Source: Alphaproteobacteria bacterium UBA4588 (GTDB taxonomy: Bacteria > Pseudomonadota > Alphaproteobacteria > Rhodobacterales > Rhodobacteraceae). From it: a stretch of DNA of 64,000 nucleotides. The stretch lies in contig CAJJAW010000002.1 of NCBI GenBank assembly GCA_905182195.1, positions 1 through 64,000 of the forward strand, in the 5' to 3' direction. A program made the position numbers and the translations under genes. Shown one piece after another: positions 4,293 to 19,481 of this stretch (position 1 is the first letter of the stretch; each line of letters opens with the position of its first letter). The notes under the pieces are model-generated. The model was not told the DNA's origin and ran no database searches. It saw only the letters and a list, made by a program, of their open reading frames with translations.

Positions 4293-5246
4293 ATGTCAGA
4301 CCATGGATACGCAGCAGGACGATTGAACTTGCCTTTCGTTGGAATTTCCACATTTGGCAAACGCCCATATATTGCGGATTGGGACGCCATAAACGCAGAC
4401 GTAGCTGTATTGGGAGCGCCTTACGATTTTGGCACTCAGTGGCGCCCCGGCGCGCGGTTTGGACCAAGAGCTGTGCGCGAGGCCTCAACCTTATTTTCAT
4501 TCGGCCATGCTGGCGCATACGACCACGAGGATGATGCCACCTATCTAGCCAGTGACGTACGTATAGTGGATATTGGTGACGCCGATATAATCCACACCAA
4601 AACTAAAGAAAGCCACGCAAACATAGAATTTGGGGTGCGCAAGATCTTAGCCGCAGGCGCACTTCCCGTGGTGATAGGTGGTGATCACTCGATCAACATT
4701 CCCTGTATAAACGCATTTTCGGATCAAGACCCAGTGCATATTGTGCAGATCGATGCTCATCTTGATTTTGTCGATGAGCGCCACGGCGTGACCGCCGGGC
4801 ATGGCAACCCAATGCGCCGCGCTATTGAAAAGCCTTGGGTCAGTGGCATGACGCAATTGGGGATCAGAAACGTGAGTTCTACTGCCAAGGAAGGCTATGA
4901 GGATGCGCGGGCGCGCGGCTCTGATATTCTTTCTGTGCGCCAAGTTCAAAAGCTGGGGATCGACGCGGTGCTGGAGCGCATTCCATTGGGCGCGCGCTAT
5001 TATGTAACAATCGACATTGACGCCTTCTGCCCATCAATTGCGCCAGGAACTGGCACGCCAAGCCATGGCGGCTTTCTTTACTATGACGTGCTAGAAATAC
5101 TGCAGGGCTTAGCGAAACGCGGTCAAGTGGCTGGTATCGACTTGGTAGAGGTCGCCCCAGCTTATGATCCGACCGACAGCACGCAAATTTTAGCTGCACA
5201 ATTGCTTTTAAACTTCATAGGGTTCATTTTTCATGCACAAAAGTGA
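4293..5246 (+). CDS. speB: Agmatinase / ureohydrolase family protein
   Basis: GGDHSI, DAHLDF and TIDIDAFCPSIAPGTGTP motifs; start chosen at internal ATG 4293 (MSDHGYAAGRL). Confidence 0.88.
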   Translation: MSDHGYAAGRLNLPFVGISTFGKRPYIADWDAINADVAVLGAPYDFGTQWRPGARFGPRAVREASTLFSFGHAGAYDHEDDATYLASDVRIVDIGDADIIHTKTKESHANIEFGVRKILAAGALPVVIGGDHSINIPCINAFSDQDPVHIVQIDAHLDFVDERHGVTAGHGNPMRRAIEKPWVSGMTQLGIRNVSSTAKEGYEDARARGSDILSVRQVQKLGIDAVLERIPLGARYYVTIDIDAFCPSIAPGTGTPSHGGFLYYDVLEILQGLAKRGQVAGIDLVEVAPAYDPTDSTQILAAQLLLNFIGFIFHAQK

Positions 5247-5265
5247 TTGAACTGAGCAGTTTAGC

Positions 5266-6135
5266 CTAGGCATCGCCGCCGAGGTCGTCCCAGATCTCAT
5301 GTACCCAGGATTTTATTTGCAAAGCCTCTTGCCAGCGGTTCGACATTTCGCGCCCATCGGGCCCAGTCATGGCATATTCAGGGGGGCCGAGTTCACACAG
5401 GAAAATACAGTCACCCATGCTGCGTTTGCGCCAATCTTGGAGGCCCTCACGCCACCAACCCTTAAACAGCTCCACCCATTTTTGATTTTGTGGAAAATCG
5501 AGTTGTAGCTGGATTTGCTGGCGGCTCGCCACACGACCTTGGAAGCTGTCTGAGCGCTGCAAAATCCTAGTGATCAACCCCATGTCTCGGTCAGACATCG
5601 GAAACCAAAACTCACGATCCACCACATAGTGGCTGAGGTCAGCACACATCCGCATTTCAGGAATGGCGTCCAGAAGACATAGGGTTGAGTAAAGGTCATT
5701 AGTGATACAATTTCGGTGGCTCTCAAATTGCACTGGTACACCTATTAGATCAGCCATATCCATCCACTGGCGTATCACAGGGATCATACCATCTACTGAA
5801 AGAGGCATCACTTGGCCAATCACATCCACAAAGGGGCTGCCAAAATCCTTAGCCATAACCAAAGTTTCACGCAAACCTTCAACACTTTTAGGGAAGGCAA
5901 CAATCAAAGGTGTTAGCCCATGGCGCTCCATATGCGGGCGGATTTCATGAGCCTGCGCCACGTCACCAGCACCTAAGTCAATTGCCATTCCATCATAACC
6001 AGCATTGGCCACCATCTCGCAGACCTGATCATAAGGCAGTTTAACACCTGTCTGATCGTGGGGCTGCATGGCCCAAAGGCTCGTATAAGTTTTGAGGTGC
6101 TGAGGCATCGAGCTCTCCAATAACATTTTAATCAT
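5266..6135 (-). CDS. Sugar phosphate isomerase/epimerase family (TIM barrel)
   Basis: AP-endonuclease-2-like pattern including FESHRNC and MCADLSHYVV. Confidence 0.75.
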   Translation of the reverse strand: MIKMLLESSMPQHLKTYTSLWAMQPHDQTGVKLPYDQVCEMVANAGYDGMAIDLGAGDVAQAHEIRPHMERHGLTPLIVAFPKSVEGLRETLVMAKDFGSPFVDVIGQVMPLSVDGMIPVIRQWMDMADLIGVPVQFESHRNCITNDLYSTLCLLDAIPEMRMCADLSHYVVDREFWFPMSDRDMGLITRILQRSDSFQGRVASRQQIQLQLDFPQNQKWVELFKGWWREGLQDWRKRSMGDCIFLCELGPPEYAMTGPDGREMSNRWQEALQIKSWVHEIWDDLGGDA

Positions 6136-6260
6136 TAAAAATGCTTCACCGCCAAAGTGAAGCAGAGAAGTTCATTCGTATCCAGAGCTAGGTTTGCAGT
6201 CTTGGCCTATGTCACAGGCAAAAGTGTATTGATACAGAACAGAGTTATAAAACGCATAAC

Positions 6261-7349
6261 TTAATCTACCGCAACACGGACCCGCCCCCCGTCAGTAGGC
6301 ACGACCCAGACTTCGTTTTGCGGCCACTGGCTTTCATCCTTTTGCATCAACCGTTTAATCACTTCAATCTGAAACTCTATCCAACCCATCCTATGAACAG
6401 TACCCGCCTGTGCTTCTATTTTTGCGTTCAATTGGCGCAATTTCCAAAATGGCACAGAAGGGAAAACGTGGTGTGCAGTGTGGTAGGGCATTTGCCAGCA
6501 AAGCCATCGCATCAACGCATTTGTGCGGGTAGAGCGGGTGTTTTCGAGTATATCGTCCTCATGGCTTAATCCCAGATGCTCAATAGTATTTTGCAGCTGA
6601 TGGATCGGTTTGGTTAGCACTATTGGTAAAATCCAAAAGACCATCACCGCCCAGCTTTGCATTGCAAATGAAACCGCCACGATGAGGACGTAAAGAGCCA
6701 CATGAATTCTACTCTCACGGACCACCTTTGCCTCCTCCTCAGCACGGATAAAGGGTTCAATTATTACACCACGAGAGCGACGGATCACTCCAAATACACG
6801 GTTGCGCCAATAGGTGATACCCGACATCCACAGCAAATAGGTCGTCAACGTATAAGGCTCGCGCACCAACTCGCCATCTTTCTCCCAGCTTTGGGTGTAT
6901 GTGTGGTGTGCAAAATGCATCACTTGATCATAATCACGCGGAAAAATCATCGCAAAGCCAATTAACCGGCCAAAAACCTCATTTAGCTTGCGAGTAGCAA
7001 AAACAGTTGCATGGCTTAGCTCGTGCTGCGCGGCATATAGAAAGTTGAGCAACACTCCTAAAACAAAGCCCGTCACCCAAACCCAGCCAGTACTCAATAC
7101 GAGACTATGCAGATAACCCACCAGAAGGATTATCCCCAGATGGCTTGCCATTTGCCCCGCACCCCAAAGATTGGAACGCGTATTCAGCATTTTTAATTCT
7201 GCCGGTGTCACCAGTTTGCGGCGTGAAAACGATGCTTCCATTACAGCCTCATATCTAAACTTCTTCATCAGTCTAAGGACGGTGGTTAAGTCTGTCCAGT
7301 CTAGCAGTGAATGCAAAAGCTCACCGCATTTAATACGCCTGTGAGACAA
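6261..7349 (-). CDS. Membrane fatty acid desaturase family protein
   Basis: Histidine boxes QHELSH, HFAHH and HTAHH; hydrophobic segments. Confidence 0.88.
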   Translation of the reverse strand: MSHRRIKCGELLHSLLDWTDLTTVLRLMKKFRYEAVMEASFSRRKLVTPAELKMLNTRSNLWGAGQMASHLGIILLVGYLHSLVLSTGWVWVTGFVLGVLLNFLYAAQHELSHATVFATRKLNEVFGRLIGFAMIFPRDYDQVMHFAHHTYTQSWEKDGELVREPYTLTTYLLWMSGITYWRNRVFGVIRRSRGVIIEPFIRAEEEAKVVRESRIHVALYVLIVAVSFAMQSWAVMVFWILPIVLTKPIHQLQNTIEHLGLSHEDDILENTRSTRTNALMRWLCWQMPYHTAHHVFPSVPFWKLRQLNAKIEAQAGTVHRMGWIEFQIEVIKRLMQKDESQWPQNEVWVVPTDGGRVRVAVD

Positions 7350-7368
7350 TTTCTATAAGGCGCACAAC

Positions 7369-9249
7369 CTAACTTAAGCGTTCCCAGGGCCGGGTAAAGC
7401 CACCCAGCACCTCGGTAATGGCGCCATCATCTGCACCGCCAACAACTTGAGCAACAAGCCCACGCTGCTTATCCTCCACAACGCTTTCCACTTGCGCATC
7501 CAGGCCGGCCTCAGCAAGCATGGTATTATAGACCCGGGTGATAGCCGATTTCCTAAGTGCTGGTTTGAAAACTTTGCCCACTGCTGTCTTGGGTAACTCT
7601 GGTAAAATTTCGATATATTTTGGCTGTGCTGCACGTTCTGTTAAGCGCTCATTGGCAAAGGAAATCAGCGCCTCTGGCGTCACAGAGCCGCCAGCCACCA
7701 ACTCAACGTATGCGCATGGGATTTCGCCAGCATGCGCGTCAGGCTGCCCAATCGCACCAACAAAACCAACGGCTTCGTGACCGGCCAACACCTCTTCAAT
7801 CTGAGCTGGGTCTATATTGTGCCCACCACGAATGATCAGATCTTTCGCCCGGCCGGTGACCCAAAGATAGCCATCCTCATCCATCCTGCCCAGATCACCA
7901 GTCCGCAAGTAATTATTAAAATAGTAAAGGTCTTTGTTTTTAGCATTCTCTGTATAGGTGTTCCCAGCAAAAACGCCGGGGCTTTCCACACAGATCTCAC
8001 CAATTTCGTTAGCAGCGCATTCTTCAGGTCCATTAGCCATATCCAACAAAATCTTCACATTGGTATGCGGCAATGGAATACCAACAGACCCAACCTTTTT
8101 GAGCCCTTGGTCAGGGTTGCAAGAGACCAAGCAGGTCACCTCAGTCAGCCCATACCCTTCTACAATTTCAATACCCGTGGCTTTTTCAAATCGTTTGAAT
8201 AATTCCACCGGCAGAGGCGACGACCCCGAAAATGCAGTTTTCAGGGTGGAAATATCTGCATCCACGGGCCGTTGCATCAACGCTGAAATCGCCGTAGGAA
8301 CTGTGATCATAAACGACACGTTCCACCGCTCAATGAGTTTCCAGAAGTTATCAAATACGCCCTCACCGCGATATCCCTGAGGAGTTGGAAATACCACATG
8401 CGCACCAGAACTGATCATGGCCATTAGTATAACATGGCAGGCGAACACATGAAACAATGGCAGTGGGCAAATGATGGTGTCTTCTGAGGTAAACAACATC
8501 CGATCACCAAGCCAGCCGTTATACACAATACCTGAATATTTATGCTGGGCCACCTTGGGCATGCCAGTAGTCCCACCAGTATGAAAATATGCAGCCACTC
8601 GGTCTTCCGCGGTATCGGCAAAATCAATAACACGGTTTTGCCGATCAAGTTCAGCATTGAAATCCATAATCTTAGCAGAATGAGTGGCCACCACCTTTGG
8701 CCGAACCAGCGATACAATCCAAGATTTTGGTGGCGTCAGATAGCGGTTGAGATCTACCTCCAAAACTGTCTCCACATTGGGGGCCTGGGCCACTGCATCA
8801 GCTGCCAATTGTGCCAAATTCGTTTTTGGGAACCCGCGCAGTGTGACCAAAACCTTGGCATTGGTTTCGCGCAAAATCGCTGCAATCTGGTCTGGTTCCA
8901 ACAGTGGATTAATCGGATTTGCGATGCCAGAGATGCTGCCACCGATCAGGGTAAGCGCTGCCTCATTACAAATTGGTAGCAGATAGGCCACAACATCAGT
9001 CTCACCGATCCCCAAGCGTCGAAACATATTCGCTGCCTGCACCGATTTATCACGAAATTCCTGCCAGCTTAGGGTTTCGGCATTATCTTTTGGGCCAGCG
9101 GTTATCTGAAAGCTAACGCCTGGGCGTTGACCATGGCGCTGTGCGACAGAATTTATGAACTCATACATGGTTTTGGGAACGTCACGCTCAACCCAGGGCA
9201 TTTCATTTTCAACTGCGTCCCGATCGGCTTTTGTTGCAAAGCTCATCAT
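7369..9249 (-). CDS. Acyl-CoA synthetase (AMP-binding family)
   Basis: HTGGTTGMPKVAQHKYSG P-loop, EGYGLTEVT, RTGDLGRMDEDGYLWVTGRAKDLIIRGG. Confidence 0.92.
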   Translation of the reverse strand: MMSFATKADRDAVENEMPWVERDVPKTMYEFINSVAQRHGQRPGVSFQITAGPKDNAETLSWQEFRDKSVQAANMFRRLGIGETDVVAYLLPICNEAALTLIGGSISGIANPINPLLEPDQIAAILRETNAKVLVTLRGFPKTNLAQLAADAVAQAPNVETVLEVDLNRYLTPPKSWIVSLVRPKVVATHSAKIMDFNAELDRQNRVIDFADTAEDRVAAYFHTGGTTGMPKVAQHKYSGIVYNGWLGDRMLFTSEDTIICPLPLFHVFACHVILMAMISSGAHVVFPTPQGYRGEGVFDNFWKLIERWNVSFMITVPTAISALMQRPVDADISTLKTAFSGSSPLPVELFKRFEKATGIEIVEGYGLTEVTCLVSCNPDQGLKKVGSVGIPLPHTNVKILLDMANGPEECAANEIGEICVESPGVFAGNTYTENAKNKDLYYFNNYLRTGDLGRMDEDGYLWVTGRAKDLIIRGGHNIDPAQIEEVLAGHEAVGFVGAIGQPDAHAGEIPCAYVELVAGGSVTPEALISFANERLTERAAQPKYIEILPELPKTAVGKVFKPALRKSAITRVYNTMLAEAGLDAQVESVVEDKQRGLVAQVVGGADDGAITEVLGGFTRPWERLS

Positions 9250-9356
9250 TCTCTCCCGATCCTGAAACCAAAACTACTTTCCGTAGTGTTTTTAATAGGA
9301 TGATTAGTTTTAACAGATTTCGCAAGGCTTATGGCAAAGCCTTAGCTTGAGCCAGT

Positions 9357-11146
9357 TTAGGAAGCGCTCTCTTCCGTAAATTGCAACTTGGCCAAGCGCG
9401 CATAAAGCCCGCCTTCACTGACCAATGTAGCATGTGTGCCCTGCGCAACAATCTGGCCCTGATCCATTACCAGAATGCGATCAGCTTTTTTCACCGTAGC
9501 TAAGCGATGCGCTACTACTAATGTCGTCCGGTCTTTAGACAAAACTTCAAATGCCTTTTGAACCAGAGCCTCACTCTCGCCATCAAGCGCCGAGGTTGCC
9601 TCGTCGAGCAAAAGAACAGGCGCATCGCGCAATATGGCCCTCGCAATTGCAATCCGCTGCTTCTGCCCACCCGACAACATAACACCACGCTCACCAACGT
9701 AGCTGTCATAGCCTTCTGGCAAAGCTAATATGAAATCATGGGCAGCTGCCGCTTTTGCAGCTGCAATCACCTCATCTTTGTCGCGTCAGGACGACCAAAA
9801 AGAATATTGTCATAGGCAGAGCAAGCAAAAATTACTGGGTCTTGCGGTACCAAGGCCATAAATCTTCGAAATGCACTGCGCTCCATCTCTGGTAAAGCGA
9901 TGCCGCCAAAGCTAATTTGGCCCTCTTGCGGGTCATAAAAACGCTGCAGCATTTGAATGATTGTTGATTTCCCAGCTCCTGACGGCCCAACCAAGGCGAC
10001 GGTCTCACCCGGATTAATAGTGAAACTCACCTTATCAAGCGCCAAGGCATCAGGGCGATTGGGGAATGTGAAATTAACTTTGTCAAAAACCACAGCACCA
10101 GCTTTTGGTGCCCGTGGGTTTTGGGGATCCGCAATCGTGTCTTGGGCATTCAACAGCTCGACCAAGCGCTCTGTGGCACCAGCGGCTCGTTGCAACTCTG
10201 ACCAAAGCTCCGACAAAGCTGCAGTGGAGCTGGCCACGATGGTGGCATAAATCACAAACTGGACCAGTTGGCCGGCCGAGGTGACGCCGCTCCGTACATC
10301 AATCGCACCAACCCATAAAACGCCCATCACACCGCTAAAGGCCACAAAGATAATAATCATTGTAATTAATGCGCGCACTTTGATGCGTGCTTTTGCGCTG
10401 TCAAAAGCTTTTTCAGTCACACCTGCAAACTCTGACAGGCTTCGAACCTCATGGGTAAAAGCCTGCACAGTTTGCACCGACAAAAGAGATTCGGAGGCCT
10501 TGCCTGATGAGGCTGCAATCCAATCTTGGTTTTTGCGTGACAGCCCACGCAGCTTGCGGCCCAATGCCAAAATTGGCCCAAGGATTAGCGGCACGATCAA
10601 TAATACCAAACCGGTGAGTTTGGGCGATGTCCAAAACATCATCACAAGCCCACCAGACATCATTAACATATTGCGTAAAAGCCAGCTGGCCGAAGATCCA
10701 ACGACCGACAGAATAAGAGTTGTGTCTGTAGTAATTCTACTTAGCACCTCACCCGTCATCAATTTTTCGAAATAGGCCGGCGACATCCCAATCATACGTT
10801 CAAAAATCGCTTTTCGGATATCAGCCACCACACGTTCACCTAGACGCGTGACAACATAGTATCGCAACCCAGTGCCCAGCGCGAAGATCGCAGCAACTAT
10901 AATGGCACCGAGGAAATACCGATTCAAAAGAGCCACGTCGCCCACGGCAAAACCATCTATAACCTGGCGCGCGGCCAAAGGCAGCACAAGCGACACACTG
11001 GCTGTGATGGTCAAGGCAATAAGCGCAAGAATTACCAACAGCTTATAGGGAGCAAAATAGGGAACCAACGCGCGCAAAACCCCAACCTGCTTGGAGGATG
11101 CACGATCCTCTGCCACATCAGCAACTGACTTTGGTCCCCGTGCCAT
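9357..11146 (-). CDS. ABC transporter, fused permease and ATP-binding protein, frameshifted
   Basis: Two ORFs (9767..11146 and 9357..9770): Walker A GPSGAGKS in the first, LSGGQKQR signature and Walker [13 protein letters not shown] in the second; joined by a 1-nt frameshift at about 9777-9779. Confidence 0.9.
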
Positions 11147-11325
11147 ACTCGTTCCCCTATTTTCTCATCCGATGTATCTTCCGCGGTGTATACCAACAAG
11201 AGGGCAATAAAGTTTATCCATCAATTTATATGTTCCATATGTATTATTTTCACAGAACGCCTGCCTTGAGAACTAAATCGCTCATAGTTTGCAGTCTGTA
11301 ATTAATATTCTATGAAATAGAGAGT

Positions 11326-11343
11326 TTGGAGCGGGTAGCGGGA
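11326..11343. repeat. Distal attachment-site copy (18-bp direct repeat of the tRNA-Gly 3' end)
   Basis: TTGGAGCGGGTAGCGGGA is identical to 17778-17795, the 3' end of tRNA-Gly(TCC). Confidence 0.82.
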
Positions 11344-11685
11344 GTTCATTTCCTTTGCCCAGTACCAATCAAATATCCAAGTAAGCAATATCAATAAGTT
11401 ATGACAACCACTATGAAACGCAAGTGGCTATTTTTGTCTACTGTGTCGTACCACAGCTAACTGCAGTCACTGTACGTGATGACAATGTACGTGTGTGGTT
11501 ACGTATGCCTGACGTAATTCCTTATCGTTACTAGTACAGGGGATGTGATGGGTGGTGATGGTGATACATATACATGTTGTTAAGCACACCTACAGACTGT
11601 CAGCCAAGGCAAGGCACTGTACGTGTCGATCACTTACTGTGACCCTACCCATAAACGTCGCAGTTGCGACATTTTGATATTACAT

Positions 11686-11717
11686 GGGGGGGCAAGGGCC
11701 AGTGGGGGTACGTGGGG
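11686..11717 (+). other. Canonical G-quadruplex motif
   Basis: GGGGGGG-CAA-GGG-CCAGT-GGGGG-TACGT-GGGG, fits G3+N1-7 x4. Confidence 0.7.
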
Positions 11718-11764
11718 TATATATACATGTAGGACTACACTCATGGGGGTTTTGGTTTGGGGGT

Positions 11765-11884
11765 ATGTCGAAAAAAACAACAGGCTGTTTGAACAGACAC
11801 AACAAGTTCTTCAATCCTAAACCTGCTAAATCAAAGTCTGTACAATACACGCCAGATGAAATTGTAATGCCAAAGAATTACTAG
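11765..11884 (+). CDS. Putative 39-aa small protein
   Basis: ATG ORF MSKKTTGCLNRHNKFFNPKPAKSKSVQYTPDEIVMPKNY; coding potential uncertain. Confidence 0.35.
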   Translation: MSKKTTGCLNRHNKFFNPKPAKSKSVQYTPDEIVMPKNY

Positions 11885-11948
11885 AAATGACAGGGATTAG
11901 TTATATGGATAACAAACCCAAAACCTGTCTGTAATAGATGAGCTTATA

Positions 11949-12567
11949 ATGAGAAAACTAACTTTCCTTTTTTACCTTACTTTTTTAACTCCTAATATTG
12001 TGACAGGTAATTTGGTAGAAATTTATTCTCTGGACCAGATGGATGACCCACGGGGTTTTTGTATAGACATAAGAGGCCATAAATCTAAAGCAAAAACCAA
12101 TTCAGGACTTCAGGCACATACCTGTTACTCATACCAAGGTAGCATTGCCGTTGATCAGGGTTTTGACTTGCTTAGGTTGGATAAAGGCCAATTTCGTTTA
12201 CCTGCCTTTGATGTGTGTATGGAAGCAGACTCAAATACTGCGTCAGCATCTTTGCGACTAAGCAAATGCCAAGATGAGGAACTTCAGAAATTTGACTGGG
12301 ATAACAACGGTAGAATTTATCTGATCAGTAATATGAAATTATGCCTTACTGTTGCCCAAGGAAAATCTAGGAAAGGTGGAGGTGGCTCGCCAATACATCT
12401 AATGAGAAATCTTTCACTGGAGCTTTGCGGTGATACGCTACAAGCATTTCAAATGTGGGGTGCAAGAAGTGAACGGTAAAGCAATAGACATAGATACTAT
12501 CATCACAGGTGATGACGATGTTTCACAATGGCGAGAGAGACATCAGCTTTGGTATGCCCAGCGCTAA
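11949..12567 (+). CDS. Exported ricin-B-lectin-like (beta-trefoil) protein, probably frameshifted near its C-terminus
   Basis: Signal peptide MRKLTFLFYLTFLTPNIVTG; repeated Cys-containing GFCIDI / DVCMEA / KLCLTV segments. The ORF-track frame ends at 12479, but removing one G from GGGG at about 12457-12460 extends it to TAA 12565-12567. Confidence 0.5.
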
Positions 12568-13064
12568 TTACCCTCAAACCTGTAAAGCCAATCTTTAGAT
12601 AGCTTTGGATCATAGTCATCAAAACTAAGGTCATCGTATAAGATTGATAGGCCACGAGCAGCCCATGTCACCCCGTAATTATATGCCTGTTGATAAAGTA
12701 TGGCTGCCTTAAGTAGGTCTTGCGGCACACCCTCTCCAAAGTGATGTAGTGTGGCGAGAGCAAATGTTGCGGCTGCATAACCCATCTCATGAGAGTAAGT
12801 TATGTCACTCTTTGCTTCTTCGTAAGAACCAGAACTCAAATAACCTCTCGCCCTCAGCAGATAATACCTTGGAAGGTTTTCGTTTTGTTTGTTAATCGCT
12901 ATCGTGCAAACCTCAATAAGCTTTGCGCCTTGGATGTCTTGGAACTTCACTGGCTCTGAGATTGATAGTGGATCAGCCTCCAGAGATCCATGAAGGTCAC
13001 ATTCCTCAACGGCATAAGCTTTGCTGGAGAGTGCAGTGCATATGAGTAAAATAATAATGCGCAT
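12564..13064 (-). CDS. Exported Sel1-like repeat protein
   Basis: Signal peptide MRIIILLICTALSSKAYA; AATFALATLHHFGEGVPQDLLKAAILYQQAYNYG matches the Sel1 pattern. Confidence 0.72.
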   Translation of the reverse strand: MRIIILLICTALSSKAYAVEECDLHGSLEADPLSISEPVKFQDIQGAKLIEVCTIAINKQNENLPRYYLLRARGYLSSGSYEEAKSDITYSHEMGYAAATFALATLHHFGEGVPQDLLKAAILYQQAYNYGVTWAARGLSILYDDLSFDDYDPKLSKDWLYRFEGN

Positions 13065-13068
13065 TCAG

Positions 13069-13623
13069 TCAGTCCAAGCGAAACACTTTTCGTCTCTTAG
13101 TAAGGGTGTTGTACGCAACGAACTCTCCACTTCCTACTGAGGCTCCAGTAGTGGCGTTGATAATCACCTGATGAGTTACCATTAAAGTCACCCCTTCGGT
13201 AAGCTCCTTAAGCCTTATGCTTAACTTATCCAGTGTGTTGTGTTTGTTGGCATAGCCCTGAAAGAAGGAGTTTAAGCCCGAAAAGGTTCTCCACTGACCT
13301 ATTTTCATGAGTTCTGTGGTTTCTTTGCAGCGACACCACTCACTTGATAATATTCGGATGAAACGGAAACCACTGTCCTTGATCGCAACACCAATGTCAC
13401 TGGCTTGTTTTCTCCCCGCTGAGCCTAAGTTTCTCTGAGTATTACAGTCAATCAGTGAGAAATTAGCAGGATCTCCATAACCAGGCGCTAATGCGTGCCG
13501 CATGAAAATAACATTGGCGTCAACTTCTGTTATCGCATTCATGAGAATGTTTTGACTTTCAGCACTAACTTGGTTGGTGGCAATGACAAGAAACGCTAGA
13601 ATGGAAGTCAATTGGCTTAACAT
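13069..13623 (-). CDS. Exported histidine phosphatase family protein
   Basis: Signal peptide MLSQLTSILAFLVIATNQVSA; MRHALAPG (RHG-like) and VTHQVIINATTG motifs. Confidence 0.82.
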   Translation of the reverse strand: MLSQLTSILAFLVIATNQVSAESQNILMNAITEVDANVIFMRHALAPGYGDPANFSLIDCNTQRNLGSAGRKQASDIGVAIKDSGFRFIRILSSEWCRCKETTELMKIGQWRTFSGLNSFFQGYANKHNTLDKLSIRLKELTEGVTLMVTHQVIINATTGASVGSGEFVAYNTLTKRRKVFRLD

Positions 13624-13865
13624 AGCTTCACCTTAACCGCAGCCCCATCTAAGGCTACACCACCATTACCTTTGTAGATGATTTGAAAAGTGTTCTCACC
13701 TTTGGCCTTACACTGCTTGCACCTAAACTTCTTACTTACATCGTGAACCGTAGCTTCCGCACCTACCACAAGTATTAGGTTGGCTACTTCAAGCATTGAG
13801 TGGTGCTTGCATAAGCCACAGGTGATGCTGAGTGTGTGGTCAGGAATCATCTTGAGTTGGGTCAT
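13617..13865 (-). CDS. Small double-CxxC zinc-ribbon protein
   Basis: CGLC...CKQC; overlaps the histidine phosphatase gene by 7 nt. Confidence 0.65.
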   Translation of the reverse strand: MTQLKMIPDHTLSITCGLCKHHSMLEVANLILVVGAEATVHDVSKKFRCKQCKAKGENTFQIIYKGNGGVALDGAAVKVKLC

Positions 13866-13870
13866 TTTAT

Positions 13871-14212
13871 TTATCTGAGTTGCCCTAGTAAGTTAATCAT
13901 CAAGACGCCAACTACTATTAAGAATAGCCCAACCATAGTCGGTACATTTGGGATTTGATTAAACTTAATAATACCAACAACAGATGTCGCTATTATGCAG
14001 ATACCAGCATACGATGCATAGGTTATTCCAACTGGCAATGATTTCATTACCTGCGACAAGCAAAACATACACAATATTATCGTGGTTATACTTAGCAGCG
14101 ACGGTAATATTTTTGTGAACCCATTTGCACTGTTGGCAAAGGTAGCAGATGCAGTTCCAAATCCCACAGCCAAGACCAAAACCAGATAAGGAAGTAGAGT
14201 TTTTACCATCAT
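13871..14212 (-). CDS. SMR-fold (EmrE-like) four-TM protein lacking acidic residues
   Basis: GFTKILPS, LPVGITYASYAGICII and GVLMINLLGQ align with the SMR family; no D or E in the sequence. Confidence 0.72.
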   Translation of the reverse strand: MMVKTLLPYLVLVLAVGFGTASATFANSANGFTKILPSLLSITTIILCMFCLSQVMKSLPVGITYASYAGICIIATSVVGIIKFNQIPNVPTMVGLFLIVVGVLMINLLGQLR

Positions 14213-14292
14213 GTCCTCCTAAAGGTAGATAATACTAATACTGGTGAAGAGAGCGTCATCAGGAACGCAAGGATGATCGTGAGGTGCTTCAT
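14209..14292 (-). CDS. Putative 27-aa hydrophobic small protein
   Basis: MKHLTIILAFLMTLSSPVLVLSTFRRT; its stop overlaps the SMR-like start and it contains AGGAGG, the likely SD of the next gene. Confidence 0.4.
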   Translation of the reverse strand: MKHLTIILAFLMTLSSPVLVLSTFRRT

Positions 14293-14357
14293 ATTCTAAC
14301 CTTAATGCTAAATCTCTCAACACGATCTTAGCTTAGCTTCATTGAGTTACAAAGAGG

Positions 14358-14531
14358 TTAGTCCTTAGTCATATCTAAGTAGCCTGCAAAGAAAGCCATG
14401 AAGCCAACAAGTATTAGCAAGTACGATGTTATGTTGTAAATGATCTGGTACGTGTTTTTGCCCTTAACTGTACACTTCTGACAGCGGAACTTTTGGCATA
14501 CACCATGGACTTTAGCATCGTCTTCAAACAC
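14358..14531 (-). CDS. Second zinc-ribbon paralog fused to a TM helix (GTG start) or truncated remnant
   Basis: VFEDDAKVHGVCQKFRCQKCTVKGKNTYQIIYNITSYLLILVGFMAFFAGYLDMTKD resembles EATVHDVSKKFRCKQCKAKGENTFQIIYK of 13617..13865; absent from the ORF track. Confidence 0.5.
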   Translation of the reverse strand: MFEDDAKVHGVCQKFRCQKCTVKGKNTYQIIYNITSYLLILVGFMAFFAGYLDMTKD

Positions 14532-14679
14532 AGACTAGCATCCTCCCGGCATATTCAGTAATATCCCACCATGCACCTGAGAAAACAGATTATGACTTAG
14601 ATCAAATAAGTACTAAATTACCTGATAGTCTATAGCTCGCATTTGATAGTATTATTATTAAGGTTTAAATTGGTGAATA

Positions 14680-15027
14680 ATGGAAAAAGTAAACTATAAA
14701 TCTGGCAGCATAATATTTGACCAAGGCGAAGCCGCAACCCAACTATTTGTAATTTCTTCAGGAAAAGTTGGTATATATTTTCCAACAAATGAATTTACTG
14801 AAGAGCCAAATATTGTACTCAATAGCCCCGAAATATTTGGGGAAATGGGGCTGATCGATGATGCTTTACGAATGGCGGGAGCAAAAGCAGAAACCGATTG
14901 TATGTTGATTTCGGTTTCAAAAGTTGAATTTGAACAAAAGCTAGAAAATTCTGATGTTATAATTCGAGGCGTAGTAGCCGCTTTATCACAACGTCTTCGG
15001 CAACTTCAAAAAAAGAAGTTAAAATAA
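14680..15027 (+). CDS. Stand-alone cyclic nucleotide-binding domain protein
   Basis: SGSIIFDQGEAATQLFVISSGKVGIY...PEIFGEMGLIDDALRMAGAKAETDC matches the CNMP-binding domain. Confidence 0.82.
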   Translation: MEKVNYKSGSIIFDQGEAATQLFVISSGKVGIYFPTNEFTEEPNIVLNSPEIFGEMGLIDDALRMAGAKAETDCMLISVSKVEFEQKLENSDVIIRGVVAALSQRLRQLQKKKLK

Positions 15028-15077
15028 ATATAGTAAGCCTTATTTACAAAAACTGATTGGTTCGCACAACAGAAATA

Positions 15078-15105
15078 GCCCAAGACCAACTTAATGATCT
15101 TGGGC
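15078..15105 (+). terminator. Putative terminator hairpin after the cNMP-binding gene
   Basis: GCCCAAGA-loop-TCTTGGGC followed by ACTTTTGG. Confidence 0.5.
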
Positions 15106-15175
15106 ACTTTTGGCCTTCATGTAGGGAGATGCTCGAGTTGGGCACTTAGAACTGAAGCTCTAAGCCCATATTATA

Positions 15176-15580
15176 TTATTTACAGGGGTAAAGATTCCAC
15201 TCTGCTTTGCCCTCTGGATCAGATTCGTAAGTGAACATGTAATACTTACCATTCAGTTCAGATAATGCTTCAGATGTAGTTTCAAATATAGCGCCGCCTC
15301 TAAACGATACGCCACCAGCTTCCGTCATGTTTCCAACACCATCACACTTATATGTGGCAACACCTTCTGCACAAAATATGACTCCAGCATGAGCATGGCC
15401 TAACCAAGAACCATCAGGTTTCATGTGAGCGGTAAATGATGCTTGTGTCTGAACATCATGGCCTAGCAGTTTCCCGCCACCAACAGTGTTTGTTTCCATA
15501 GCAGGTAATCCATATTGCCCAGAGTCTATCGGCTTACTGGTTTCCTGAAGGGTCATTGATCCGGCTTTATTACCAAGCAT
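15176..15580 (-). CDS. Hypothetical protein, beta-rich (cupin / allene-oxide-cyclase-like?)
   Basis: Intact 134-aa ORF; family assignment tentative. Confidence 0.5.
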   Translation of the reverse strand: MLGNKAGSMTLQETSKPIDSGQYGLPAMETNTVGGGKLLGHDVQTQASFTAHMKPDGSWLGHAHAGVIFCAEGVATYKCDGVGNMTEAGGVSFRGGAIFETTSEALSELNGKYYMFTYESDPEGKAEWNLYPCK

Positions 15581-15753
15581 TTTTATTCTCCTATGTTTTT
15601 TGCCAATAAGTAGTATGAAAACTTAGAAAGCCATATCCATAAAATGAAGTAAACCTATAGTTGACTATTTTTATCAGATATATATAAATTTATTTTTATA
15701 GCTAAATAATTGCTTCAGTCGCAATGTAAAATGAAGTGAAAAGGAAGAATTTG

Positions 15754-16038
15754 ATGCCTAGTATTCTAGTAACAGTAAAAATTTCAAAAGGTTTTAAAAC
15801 TTGGTCAGAAATGGCGAAGTCATTTGATGACGAAATGCCTGAGCACGGCGGTAAAATAGTATGGGCCGCCACTAACCCCGATGAAACTGAAATCTATTGT
15901 ATGATGGATGTGCCCGACCCAGAATTTATGAAGACATTTGGTGAGCGTCCTGATGTCAGAAAAAGACGTGAGGATGCTGGTGCTGATGTTTCATCAACTA
16001 CAGTTATAACTCAGATTGGCGATTATTGGTTAGGATAA
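15754..16038 (+). CDS. Small hypothetical protein (DUF3764-like)
   Basis: MPSILVTVKISKGFKTWSEMAKSFDDEMPEHGGKIVWAATNPDETEIYCMMDVPDPE; start chosen at internal ATG. Confidence 0.55.
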   Translation: MPSILVTVKISKGFKTWSEMAKSFDDEMPEHGGKIVWAATNPDETEIYCMMDVPDPEFMKTFGERPDVRKRREDAGADVSSTTVITQIGDYWLG

Positions 16039-16141
16039 GGTAGTCATTTGATCTTCGAAGAATAAACTATGGTACACTACCAGTGGGCTATTACAGCCTG
16101 CTGCTTAACCAAAAAAGAAATATAATCAGGATACTAAAATA

Positions 16142-16468
16142 ATGTCGATTTATGAAAGATGGAACGAAGCATGGAACAATAATGATGCTACTGCAGCATT
16201 CGAATGTTTCCATGATGATTTTGAATTCAAATTTCATTCAAGCGGTAACGTAATGAAAAAATCCGATATGAGCGTTGAGATGATGACGAAGATGATGCAA
16301 AATGAAACGCTTACAAACCAACGCTGTATTTATGAAAATGATGACATTTGCGTTTTCCACCAGGTTTCTAAGTTTGCAAGCGGTGACAAAGAAGCCGTTA
16401 TGATGGTCAGTCTCAAAAAAGATGGACTGATATGGAGAACTGAGACAGGAGCAACGCCACTCAAGTAA
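16142..16468 (+). CDS. SnoaL/NTF2-like fold protein
   Basis: MSIYERWNEAWNNNDATAAFECFHDDFEFKFH N-terminal pattern. Confidence 0.65.
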   Translation: MSIYERWNEAWNNNDATAAFECFHDDFEFKFHSSGNVMKKSDMSVEMMTKMMQNETLTNQRCIYENDDICVFHQVSKFASGDKEAVMMVSLKKDGLIWRTETGATPLK

Positions 16469-16595
16469 TCATTTTTGTGGGCTCTCTTTAAGCATCTAAA
16501 ATCAAAAATTAGGAAAGAAAATAACAATAGTTAAGACTAGAGTTCTTATGAATTTGTGTACCAATATTTAGTTGAGCCAAACGTGCATTATCACT

Positions 16596-17201
16596 TTATT
16601 TCCAATCGACCCGATACATGGCTTCGTTCCGTTTCATAAATGGTAGGGTGAACGGGCCGTTATAGGTGGCCATCAGTGGGTCTCCGATTGTAGGAATATT
16701 AGCTTTTCCTAAGGCTCCTTTAAGTAGAGCGGAGTGTTTATTGTAGTTTTTACTGGTTGAGCGCCCTGAGTATTTAATAACCGCATAAAATCCACCTTTA
16801 ACCGTAATCAATTCGATATTGTCTGCATCTGGAGTTGGGGCTGATTGCTTTGTGAAACTTTTAGGCAAAAAGAAAATCATGGCAGAGCTGTTATCGTTGT
16901 TCGACTGCAGCACAGGAACAGTCATCGCAATTTTTGATGAACTTTCATTTGAGCCTGAGATATATTTAAATAACCGCCTAAAGGCTCCATTTTGACCGCT
17001 AGTCTGCATAGTTTGTACGGCGAGCCTATCTTGATATTGCCTTATTTCATAAACATCTGTCGCTTTGATTAGTTTATAATCTGGTTCTTCATACGCCATT
17101 GCGTTTCCAGTCATAAATAAGAAAATAGCAACAATAAGACCGAAGAATTTGCACACTAATTTAATGCGTTTTGTCATGATGCTATGGCCCATATTCTTCA
17201 T
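16596..17201 (-). CDS. SOUL-family heme-binding protein, exported
   Basis: EEPDYKLIKATDVYEIRQYQDRLAVQT...SSKIAMTVPV matches SOUL. Confidence 0.9.
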   Translation of the reverse strand: MKNMGHSIMTKRIKLVCKFFGLIVAIFLFMTGNAMAYEEPDYKLIKATDVYEIRQYQDRLAVQTMQTSGQNGAFRRLFKYISGSNESSSKIAMTVPVLQSNNDNSSAMIFFLPKSFTKQSAPTPDADNIELITVKGGFYAVIKYSGRSTSKNYNKHSALLKGALGKANIPTIGDPLMATYNGPFTLPFMKRNEAMYRVDWK

Positions 17202-17216
17202 GTTGATTGCAAATAA

Positions 17217-17702
17217 TTAGCACTTTTGTGGGTTGTTATCAATGTATACTAAACTAACGCAATTTGAACAGACTGAAGCGGCATCAGATGACGAATACGC
17301 ATCAAGAGGCCGGTCGCCTAAATGTTGGATCACATATCCAACATTTCTTCTTGCTACTTTGAAGAATTGATCCCCTCTGCCAATATCTTTTAGCCGGCAA
17401 TATTTTTCCAATGCATCAGACAGTTTTGGAGAAAATGATGTGAATGTGTTTGTTGGTTGTCCCTTGATTAGTAACTCTGCAGCGGGAACTTCCATCTGAG
17501 AAATACGCATCTTTAGCCAGAAGTCATCAAGTTTACTGGCAAGAGAATGACTAGCCTTCAACGCAGAGTTTTTACTACGGGTCTTTAAACATATCACAAT
17601 GCGAGGTCGTGCATAATGACATTGCAGATCATTCGGCACATGTCTGGTGAAGTAAAATACGCCGCCTTTATTCATTAAATAATGAGCATCTTTGTCTACC
17701 AT
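17217..17702 (-). pseudogene. Truncated tyrosine-recombinase-type integrase (N-terminal part only)
   Basis: MVDKDAHYLMNKGGVFYFTRHVPNDLQ... N-terminal domain followed by a SAM-like core-binding region; ends before any catalytic domain; next to the tRNA-Gly 3' end. Confidence 0.75.
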
Positions 17703-17778
17703 GTCGTATACTCCACATAACCTGCAAAACAAAACATGCCTACAGATCAAGTGTTTATAAATATTGATGGAAATTTAT

Positions 17779-17852
17779 TGGAGCGGGTAGCGGGAATCGA
17801 ACCCGCGCCTTAAGCTTGGAAGGCTCTTATGATACCATTTCACCATACCCGC
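17779..17852 (-). tRNA. tRNA-Gly(TCC)
   Basis: GCGGGTATGGTGAAATGGTATCATAAGAGCCTTCCAAGCTTAAGGCGCGGGTTCGATTCCCGCTACCCGCTCCA. Confidence 0.96.
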
Positions 17853-18986: not shown

Positions 18987-19481
18987 ATGCCATACTCTAC
19001 AAGCAAAGCGGCAAGGGTGTCAGGGGTAAGCAAGACTACGATTCACAAGTGGATCAAGTCTGGTAAGCTGTCAGCCTCTAAGCTTGAAGACGGTACATAC
19101 GCTATTGATGAAAGTGAGTTGGCTAGGGTTACTTCGCACCGTGAAAAGATTTCGCTATCTAGACCTTTCACACCATCACCTGAGGATAACGCTGTACCTA
19201 AAGCTGTGCCCCTTGATCTGAGTATTTATAGGGCAAATACAATACATGAGCTAAAGTTTGAGGCTGCTCTTGAGGCTGCAACCTATGAGCGTAAACTTCT
19301 ACAGCAACAGGTTGACCAGTTAACAGTGACTGCTAGCGAAGCCAAAGATCGGGCGGAGCAAGCTGAGGAACGAACAGACGAGGCTAGAAAACAGTATCAT
19401 GAGAGCATTCAAACGCTCACCAGACTGCTTGAAGATAAAAGACCTGCCCCGCCACGTACGAGGTTTCTGGGCATTTTCTGA
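18987..19481 (+). CDS. Excisionase/MerR-like HTH protein with C-terminal coiled coil
   Basis: MPYSTSKAARVSGVSKTTIHKWIKSGKLSASKLEDGTYAIDESEL, then a long QQQVDQLTVTASEAKDRAEQAEERTDEARK coil. Confidence 0.72.
   Translation: MPYSTSKAARVSGVSKTTIHKWIKSGKLSASKLEDGTYAIDESELARVTSHREKISLSRPFTPSPEDNAVPKAVPLDLSIYRANTIHELKFEAALEAATYERKLLQQQVDQLTVTASEAKDRAEQAEERTDEARKQYHESIQTLTRLLEDKRPAPPRTRFLGIF

Follow-up and report, generated by a model that had tools for sequence, protein, structure and literature searches.

What kind of element has come to lie between a tRNA-Gly(TCC) gene and an orphaned second copy of that gene's 3' end, and what has become of its capacity to move? The question is raised by positions 11344-17795 (6,452 bp) of a 64,000-nucleotide stretch of Alphaproteobacteria bacterium UBA4588 (contig CAJJAW010000002.1, positions 1 to 64,000), the whole of which is here called the window. 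With a probability of roughly 0.88, this island is a derelict integrative element of a tRNA-targeting family whose intact members carry twin copies of the attachment site of the circular form (attP). The reading follows from four observations: the 18-mer pair at the borders is unique, empty sites exist, the integrase is without its catalytic domain, and that integrase has a full-length sister in another genome (G005). Genomes, contigs and loci beyond the window are designated below by G, C and L numbers, where needed.

The tRNA-Gly target and the integrase remnant

A preliminary description, made from the letters of the window, had placed an 18-mer at both borders of the island, taking the copy within the tRNA as its 3' end and the distal copy as the displaced original. 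A search of the whole window finds exact copies of the 18-mer (TTGGAGCGGGTAGCGGGA) at these two places (Table 1) and no third match with up to three mismatches allowed, as against 0.04 matches on average in shuffled sequences, and the own genome (2.62 Mb) contains two exact matches, both in the window. The shuffles rule out a chance pair and the genome-wide count rules out a dispersed motif. The proximal copy forms the 3' end of the tRNA-Gly(TCC) called by ARAGORN, bearing out the description to the base, and none of the window's other three tRNAs has a repeated copy of its 3' end.

The empty tRNA-Gly site that had been expected in relatives is present in four congeneric genomes, the genus being probably Planktomarina. 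In these, tRNA-Gly(TCC) comes directly after an ABC-transporter gene, at a distance from the start of that gene of 176 bp in G016, 267 in G018, 208 in G015 and 186 in G008; in the window, the transporter lies 182 bp from the orphan 18-mer and 6,634 bp from the tRNA. Between the occupied site of G009 and the empty site of G016, identity is 97.5% over an alignment of 2,998 bp that stops at the last base of the 18-mer; past this base, G016 has the tRNA and G009 an element end akin to the window's. This point of divergence marks, as judged from the alignment, a base-exact integration junction at tRNA-Gly, and upholds the view of the orphan copy as the displaced original 3' end. The window's element end, a non-coding segment here abbreviated LE, is 73% identical to that of G009, 83% to a segment of G005 (contig C50) and 89% to positions 2550-2974 of the own contig C6, where the copy comes after a tRNA-Thr attachment (att) core. 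Beyond the occupied site in G009 (L045), translations reveal a serine-resolvase C-terminal fragment and a pckA-like gene (5988-6233, 8081-9679), and this DNA has no match beside tRNA-Gly in G016. Outside the island, just past the tRNA, the window itself encodes an HTH_17/MerR-like protein (18987-19481) that matches phage excisionase/regulator families (phrog_66, 6.5e-09).

Adjoining the tRNA is the remnant of an integrase with DUF6538, the N-terminal domain in a class of tyrosine integrases. Pfam profiles detect neither a catalytic domain nor a Phage_integrase match in its frame, and it aligns with full-length DUF6538-Phage_integrase proteins over the first ~143 of their ~381 residues only, the homology ending at 17275. 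A functional catalytic domain, which is needed for autonomy though not for island status, is thus absent from the window copy. At the same tRNA and in the same orientation, G005 has a full-length integrase with a stop codon, 84% identical over the shared part. The window remnant is its sister in the tree (100/94), and both group with the integrases of the elements at tRNA-Leu(CAA) in G012 and G004 (L096/L097; 100/100), so that by the tree the window integrase belongs to the clade of twin-inverted-attP elements described below. The locus displays the marks by which a tRNA-integrated island is recognised: the 3' end of the tRNA is directly repeated at the distal border, relatives have an empty site, and an integrase gene stands next to the tRNA. 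That the island of the window integrated at tRNA-Gly by recombination at the core, and that its integrase was lost afterwards, is well supported.

The crippled state of the integrase, and its kinship with tyrosine recombinases, had both been anticipated in the preliminary description, according to which the island appears to be either fixed or dependent on an integrase acting in trans. This fits what the own genome holds. Of its three other DUF6538 genes, one is broken at tRNA-Thr (C6), one is frameshifted (C10) and the third, at tRNA-Leu(CAG), is of a different subfamily (35% identity) with a shifted N-terminus; no intact integrase of the remnant's subfamily was found in this genome. Hence, as far as its gene content indicates, a trans-acting integrase for the window core is not evident there. 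The gene on C6 is part of a second decayed element (L098, 1544-5032) at tRNA-Thr(TGT), in which an att core stands in an attP-like context beside the broken same-subfamily integrase. Phage records yielded weak integrase matches only and no close relative.

The inverted second attP of intact relatives

Intact relatives share a plan, tRNA-core-U-int-U'-core'-LE'-cargo-LE-core, in which U is the arm between the integrase start and the core, and a complete, inverted attP follows the integrase. In G012 and G004, for example, the elements at tRNA-Leu(CAA) are bounded by 17-bp direct repeats, and in both 81 bp comprising core and U recur in inverted orientation right past the stop codon of the integrase; next to them comes LE, likewise inverted. 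The same plan occurs in G012 at tRNA-Thr(TGT), tRNA-Ser(TGA) and tRNA-Ser(GGA), and in G004 at tRNA-Ser(TGA). The element with the frameshifted integrase on C10 of the own genome (L102, oriented 4894-17657) is a decayed one of 12.8 kb that retains both inverted repeats; its distal core has 2 bp unlike those of the proximal and the internal one, and alongside it no intact tRNA was detected. The two inverted repeats overlap in exactly the tRNA att core, 14-19 bp long (in L097 a gapped match gives 28), and the internal site has the order LE-core-U that the attP of an excised circle should show. The elements measured are 5.6-12.8 kb in length. In the window, the U arm lies between integrase and core, and no U'-core'-LE' was found past the integrase. 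The island is thus filed as a decayed relative rather than an intact member of the clade, one that would have lost the inverted module along with the integrase C-terminus. This second attP lay beyond what the window could by itself reveal.

A uniform inverted-repeat test was applied to 37 loci with a close (clade) integrase and 18 with more distant DUF6538 integrases. An inverted internal attP is present in 30/37 of the former and 0/18 of the latter (Fisher 3e-9, a value that is indicative only, since related loci are not independent events). The more distant integrases (24-40% identity) being without the repeats, these are ruled out as a general DUF6538 feature. The seven clade loci without the repeat are L208, whose integrase is truncated; L101, which stops 661 bp past its integrase; L132, L201 and L214, which lack a neighbouring tRNA; and L134 and L139, whose frames are long. 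More than half of the repeat-bearing loci (17/30) come from beyond the genus: from 13 genomes, each of a different genus, and from a record of Ruegeria sp. TM1040; as the genus of TM1040 may coincide with one of these 13, the count is of at least 13 other genera. By this sequence comparison, the family is one of tRNA-targeting cargo elements in the window genus and other Rhodobacteraceae, a family name that depends on the probable genus and the TM1040 match, NCBI placing Ruegeria in Roseobacteraceae. The TM1040 element, on a complete megaplasmid (NC_008043.1), has the twin-attP plan at tRNA-Phe(GAA), an integrase that shares 56% identity with the one in L128, and an inverted repeat of 1,148 bp at 100% identity, with the same BRO gene (WP_011537156.1) in both copies, inverted. 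In L206 (G244), inverted repeats of 3,183 bp, also at 100% identity, each hold the whole gene of a 633-aa P-loop-like protein and enclose what translations suggest are RTX-like repeat proteins.

The repeats are more alike within an element (LE 95.5-99.8%, U 99.6-100%) than between related elements (LE mostly 63-89%, U 88-98%); in L096, by exception, LE is 84% identical within the element and up to 94% identical to L097. This pattern points to concerted evolution in most elements, with which both the integrase and homologous recombination are compatible. It also bears on a simpler view, namely that the window holds an ordinary single-attP tRNA island, or the remnant of a prophage or phage satellite, and that the inverted repeats of its relatives are incidental. 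The window copy does show one attL/attR pair only, its cargo is ordinary, and more distant tRNA-borne DUF6538 integrases do without repeats. However, repeats are present at 30 of the 37 clade loci and overlap precisely in the core, and their identity is mostly 95-100% within elements as against 63-89% between them, all of which makes this view unlikely.

In the preferred reading of a derelict twin-attP element, recombination would have taken place between the attP core of a circle encoding a DUF6538-type tyrosine recombinase and the same 18 bp in the 3' end of tRNA-Gly(TCC), restoring the tRNA with element sequence and leaving the host's own 3' end as the orphan at 11326. A later deletion would have taken the integrase C-terminus together with the neighbouring inverted attP module (core', LE'), after which the window copy could no longer move itself. 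In intact members, the circle would carry two inverted attPs dividing an integrase half from a cargo half. Sequence comparison establishes the target, the core, the empty and occupied sites, the integrase truncation and the family architecture; excision, recombination between the two attPs, and a role in inversion or in amplification of the kind considered below are inferred from it. Several points weigh against this account. That the window copy once had the inverted module is argued from relatives, no scar being seen; the right junction of G009 falls beyond its contig; the window and G005 copies may stem from one insertion event or from two; and, with the integrase oriented almost uniformly, there is no sign of frequent inversion while the element is integrated.

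Possible inversion and replication

The integrase reads away from the tRNA in all inverted-repeat loci but one, L104 (G018, C15), in which it is reversed relative to tRNA-Leu(GAG), while the gene is forward in L106 (G007). The reversal may reflect inversion or an effect of assembly. Were it the former, attL, attP' and attR might be seen as parts of an invertible switch whose operation reverses either the integrase gene or the cargo block and thereby alters expression. Yet L104 stands alone and lies at a contig end, where the assembly of short reads across a repeat could have flipped it; U is identical on both sides, leaving a flipped integrase with the same promoter; and the rep gene has the same orientation in both elements whose open reading frames were read. 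Such a switch is accordingly the least probable of the alternatives entertained here.

A parallel might also be struck with the yeast 2-micron plasmid, in which Flp acting on inverted FRT sites in 599-bp repeats starts double rolling-circle replication (PMC3147054). By analogy, the integrase of an excised circle might invert one half during replication, so that theta forks become double rolling circles and copy number rises before the element integrates again. The inferred circle, with two complete inverted recombinase sites in inverted repeats and the recombinase gene in one half, resembles the yeast plasmid in this respect, and the concerted evolution of the repeats is in keeping with such a cycle. 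Several members, moreover, encode a primase and an origin-binding-type protein (phrog_16950 4e-23, phrog_3712 3.5e-16), of which G012 has three copies. In contrast, no replication gene was recognised in the window island or the G004 tRNA-Leu element, the orientation of the integrase is nearly uniform, and the case is again one made from sequence. The two systems also differ in that the elements enter bacterial tRNA genes with a DUF6538/Phage_integrase-type integrase, have no family kinship with the yeast plasmid and would amplify only hypothetically. This replication mode is thus a speculative option, and it is with equal reserve that one might regard the family, present in at least 13 further genera, as a bacterial counterpart of the 2-micron circle to which the window island belongs in decayed form.

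Somewhat less probable still is that the inverted repeats are renewed as a by-product of a replication or transfer form (a fold-back single strand or inverted dimer) rather than recombined by the integrase. The perfect repeats of TM1040 (1,148 bp) and G244 (3,183 bp) resemble renewal in each cycle, whereas the intermediate itself is conjectural here.

Cargo and comparison with known systems

Table 1. Features of the tRNA-Gly island and its borders in the window; cargo families were assigned by Pfam profile matches to translations of the window's open reading frames.
Feature	Position	Strand	Basis
Distal att core: orphan tRNA-Gly 3' end, displaced host attB half	11326..11343	+	Exact 18-mer; G016/G009 junction base-exact
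LE: non-coding element end, TACGTG-rich, homologous to other elements' ends	11344..11764	+	DNA identity
Cargo: ricin-B-type lectin-like protein	11949..12479	+	Pfam Ricin_B_lectin 6.9e-10
Cargo: Sel1-repeat protein	12564..13064	-	Pfam Sel1 2.7e-05, below curated cut-off
Cargo: histidine-phosphatase-like protein	13069..13623	-	Pfam His_Phos_1 3.5e-4, just below cut-off
Cargo: 82-aa zinc-ribbon protein	13617..13865	-	Homologues in islands of G009, C6, G004, G012 and near tRNA-Arg in G005
Cargo: small multidrug resistance (SMR) family membrane protein	13871..14212	-	Pfam Multi_Drug_Res 1.7e-16
Cargo: cyclic-nucleotide-binding domain protein	14680..15027	+	Pfam cNMP_binding 7e-17
Cargo: hypothetical protein	15176..15580	-	No Pfam match; 97.7% DNA identity in G005 C3
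Cargo: hypothetical protein	15736..16038	+	Open reading frame only; no family matched
Cargo: SnoaL-like protein	16142..16468	+	Pfam SnoaL_2 4.8e-08
Cargo: SOUL haem-binding family protein	16596..17201	-	Pfam SOUL 2.6e-40
Integrase remnant, DUF6538 N-terminal part	17217..17702	-	Pfam DUF6538 4.3e-16; homology to 17275-17702
U: attP arm and presumed promoter region, integrase start to core	17703..17777	-	Conserved in C6, G005
Proximal att core: restored tRNA-Gly 3' end, element-derived	17778..17795	+	Repeat, ARAGORN, empty-site comparison
tRNA-Gly(TCC), integration target	17779..17852	-	ARAGORN

The cargo genes of the window are small and ordinary. A 1.7-kb block (11944-13666) is 98.4% identical to DNA of G018, against 76% for the chromosomal flank, and a second (15145-15588) is 97.7% identical to DNA of G005; by sequence identity, the cargo has moved between lineages recently. 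The lectin-like gene, within the first block, is also 88% identical in DNA to a gene in the G009 island. The zinc-ribbon gene occurs at many sites across the genomes of the genus, several of them within these elements. Elsewhere in the family, the cargo of L128, L130, L131 and L135 has tandem 102-bp repeats, which in L128 and L131 encode TPR proteins with differing C-terminal parts (sulfotransferase-like and methyltransferase-like).

The core at the tRNA 3' end, the integrase beside the tRNA, the distal orphan repeat and the empty sites are all as in tRNA islands of the lambda-integrase type, from which the intact relatives differ in holding a second complete, inverted attP directly past the integrase. 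Tycheposons, in the account drawn on here (PMC10872708), are marine cargo elements of 4-200 kbp with a tRNA border, a tyrosine recombinase and metabolic cargo; by that outline, the window island likewise combines a marine bacterium, a tRNA border, a tyrosine recombinase and cargo, whereas the elements of this family are near the low end of the size range and have the twin inverted attP, the likeness being one of description. PICMI and other phage satellites (PMC10803314) are similarly small site-specific islands with an integrase, and a primase is shared by some members. Unlike them, the proteins examined here include no recognised AlpA-Fis set or packaging gene, the attP is inverted and there is no known helper phage; the joint presence of integrase, AlpA, primase and Fis that typifies PICMI is not seen in the window island. 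For the inverted second attP itself, a literature search on DUF6538, inverted or duplicated attP and Planktomarina islands, with most subscription journals outside its reach, returned no natural precedent.

Thus, while the window island on its own would pass for an ordinary decayed tRNA island, its intact relatives reveal a repeatable architecture. The inverted internal attP of an integrated element allows the attP to be read without seeing the circle, and the inverted repeats probably explain why many draft contigs end soon past these integrases. In light of this, the family can be seen as a testable bacterial case of a recombinase with twin inverted sites, and as one that bears host-relevant cargo, such as the type I restriction-modification system carried by the element of Ruegeria sp. 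TM1040.

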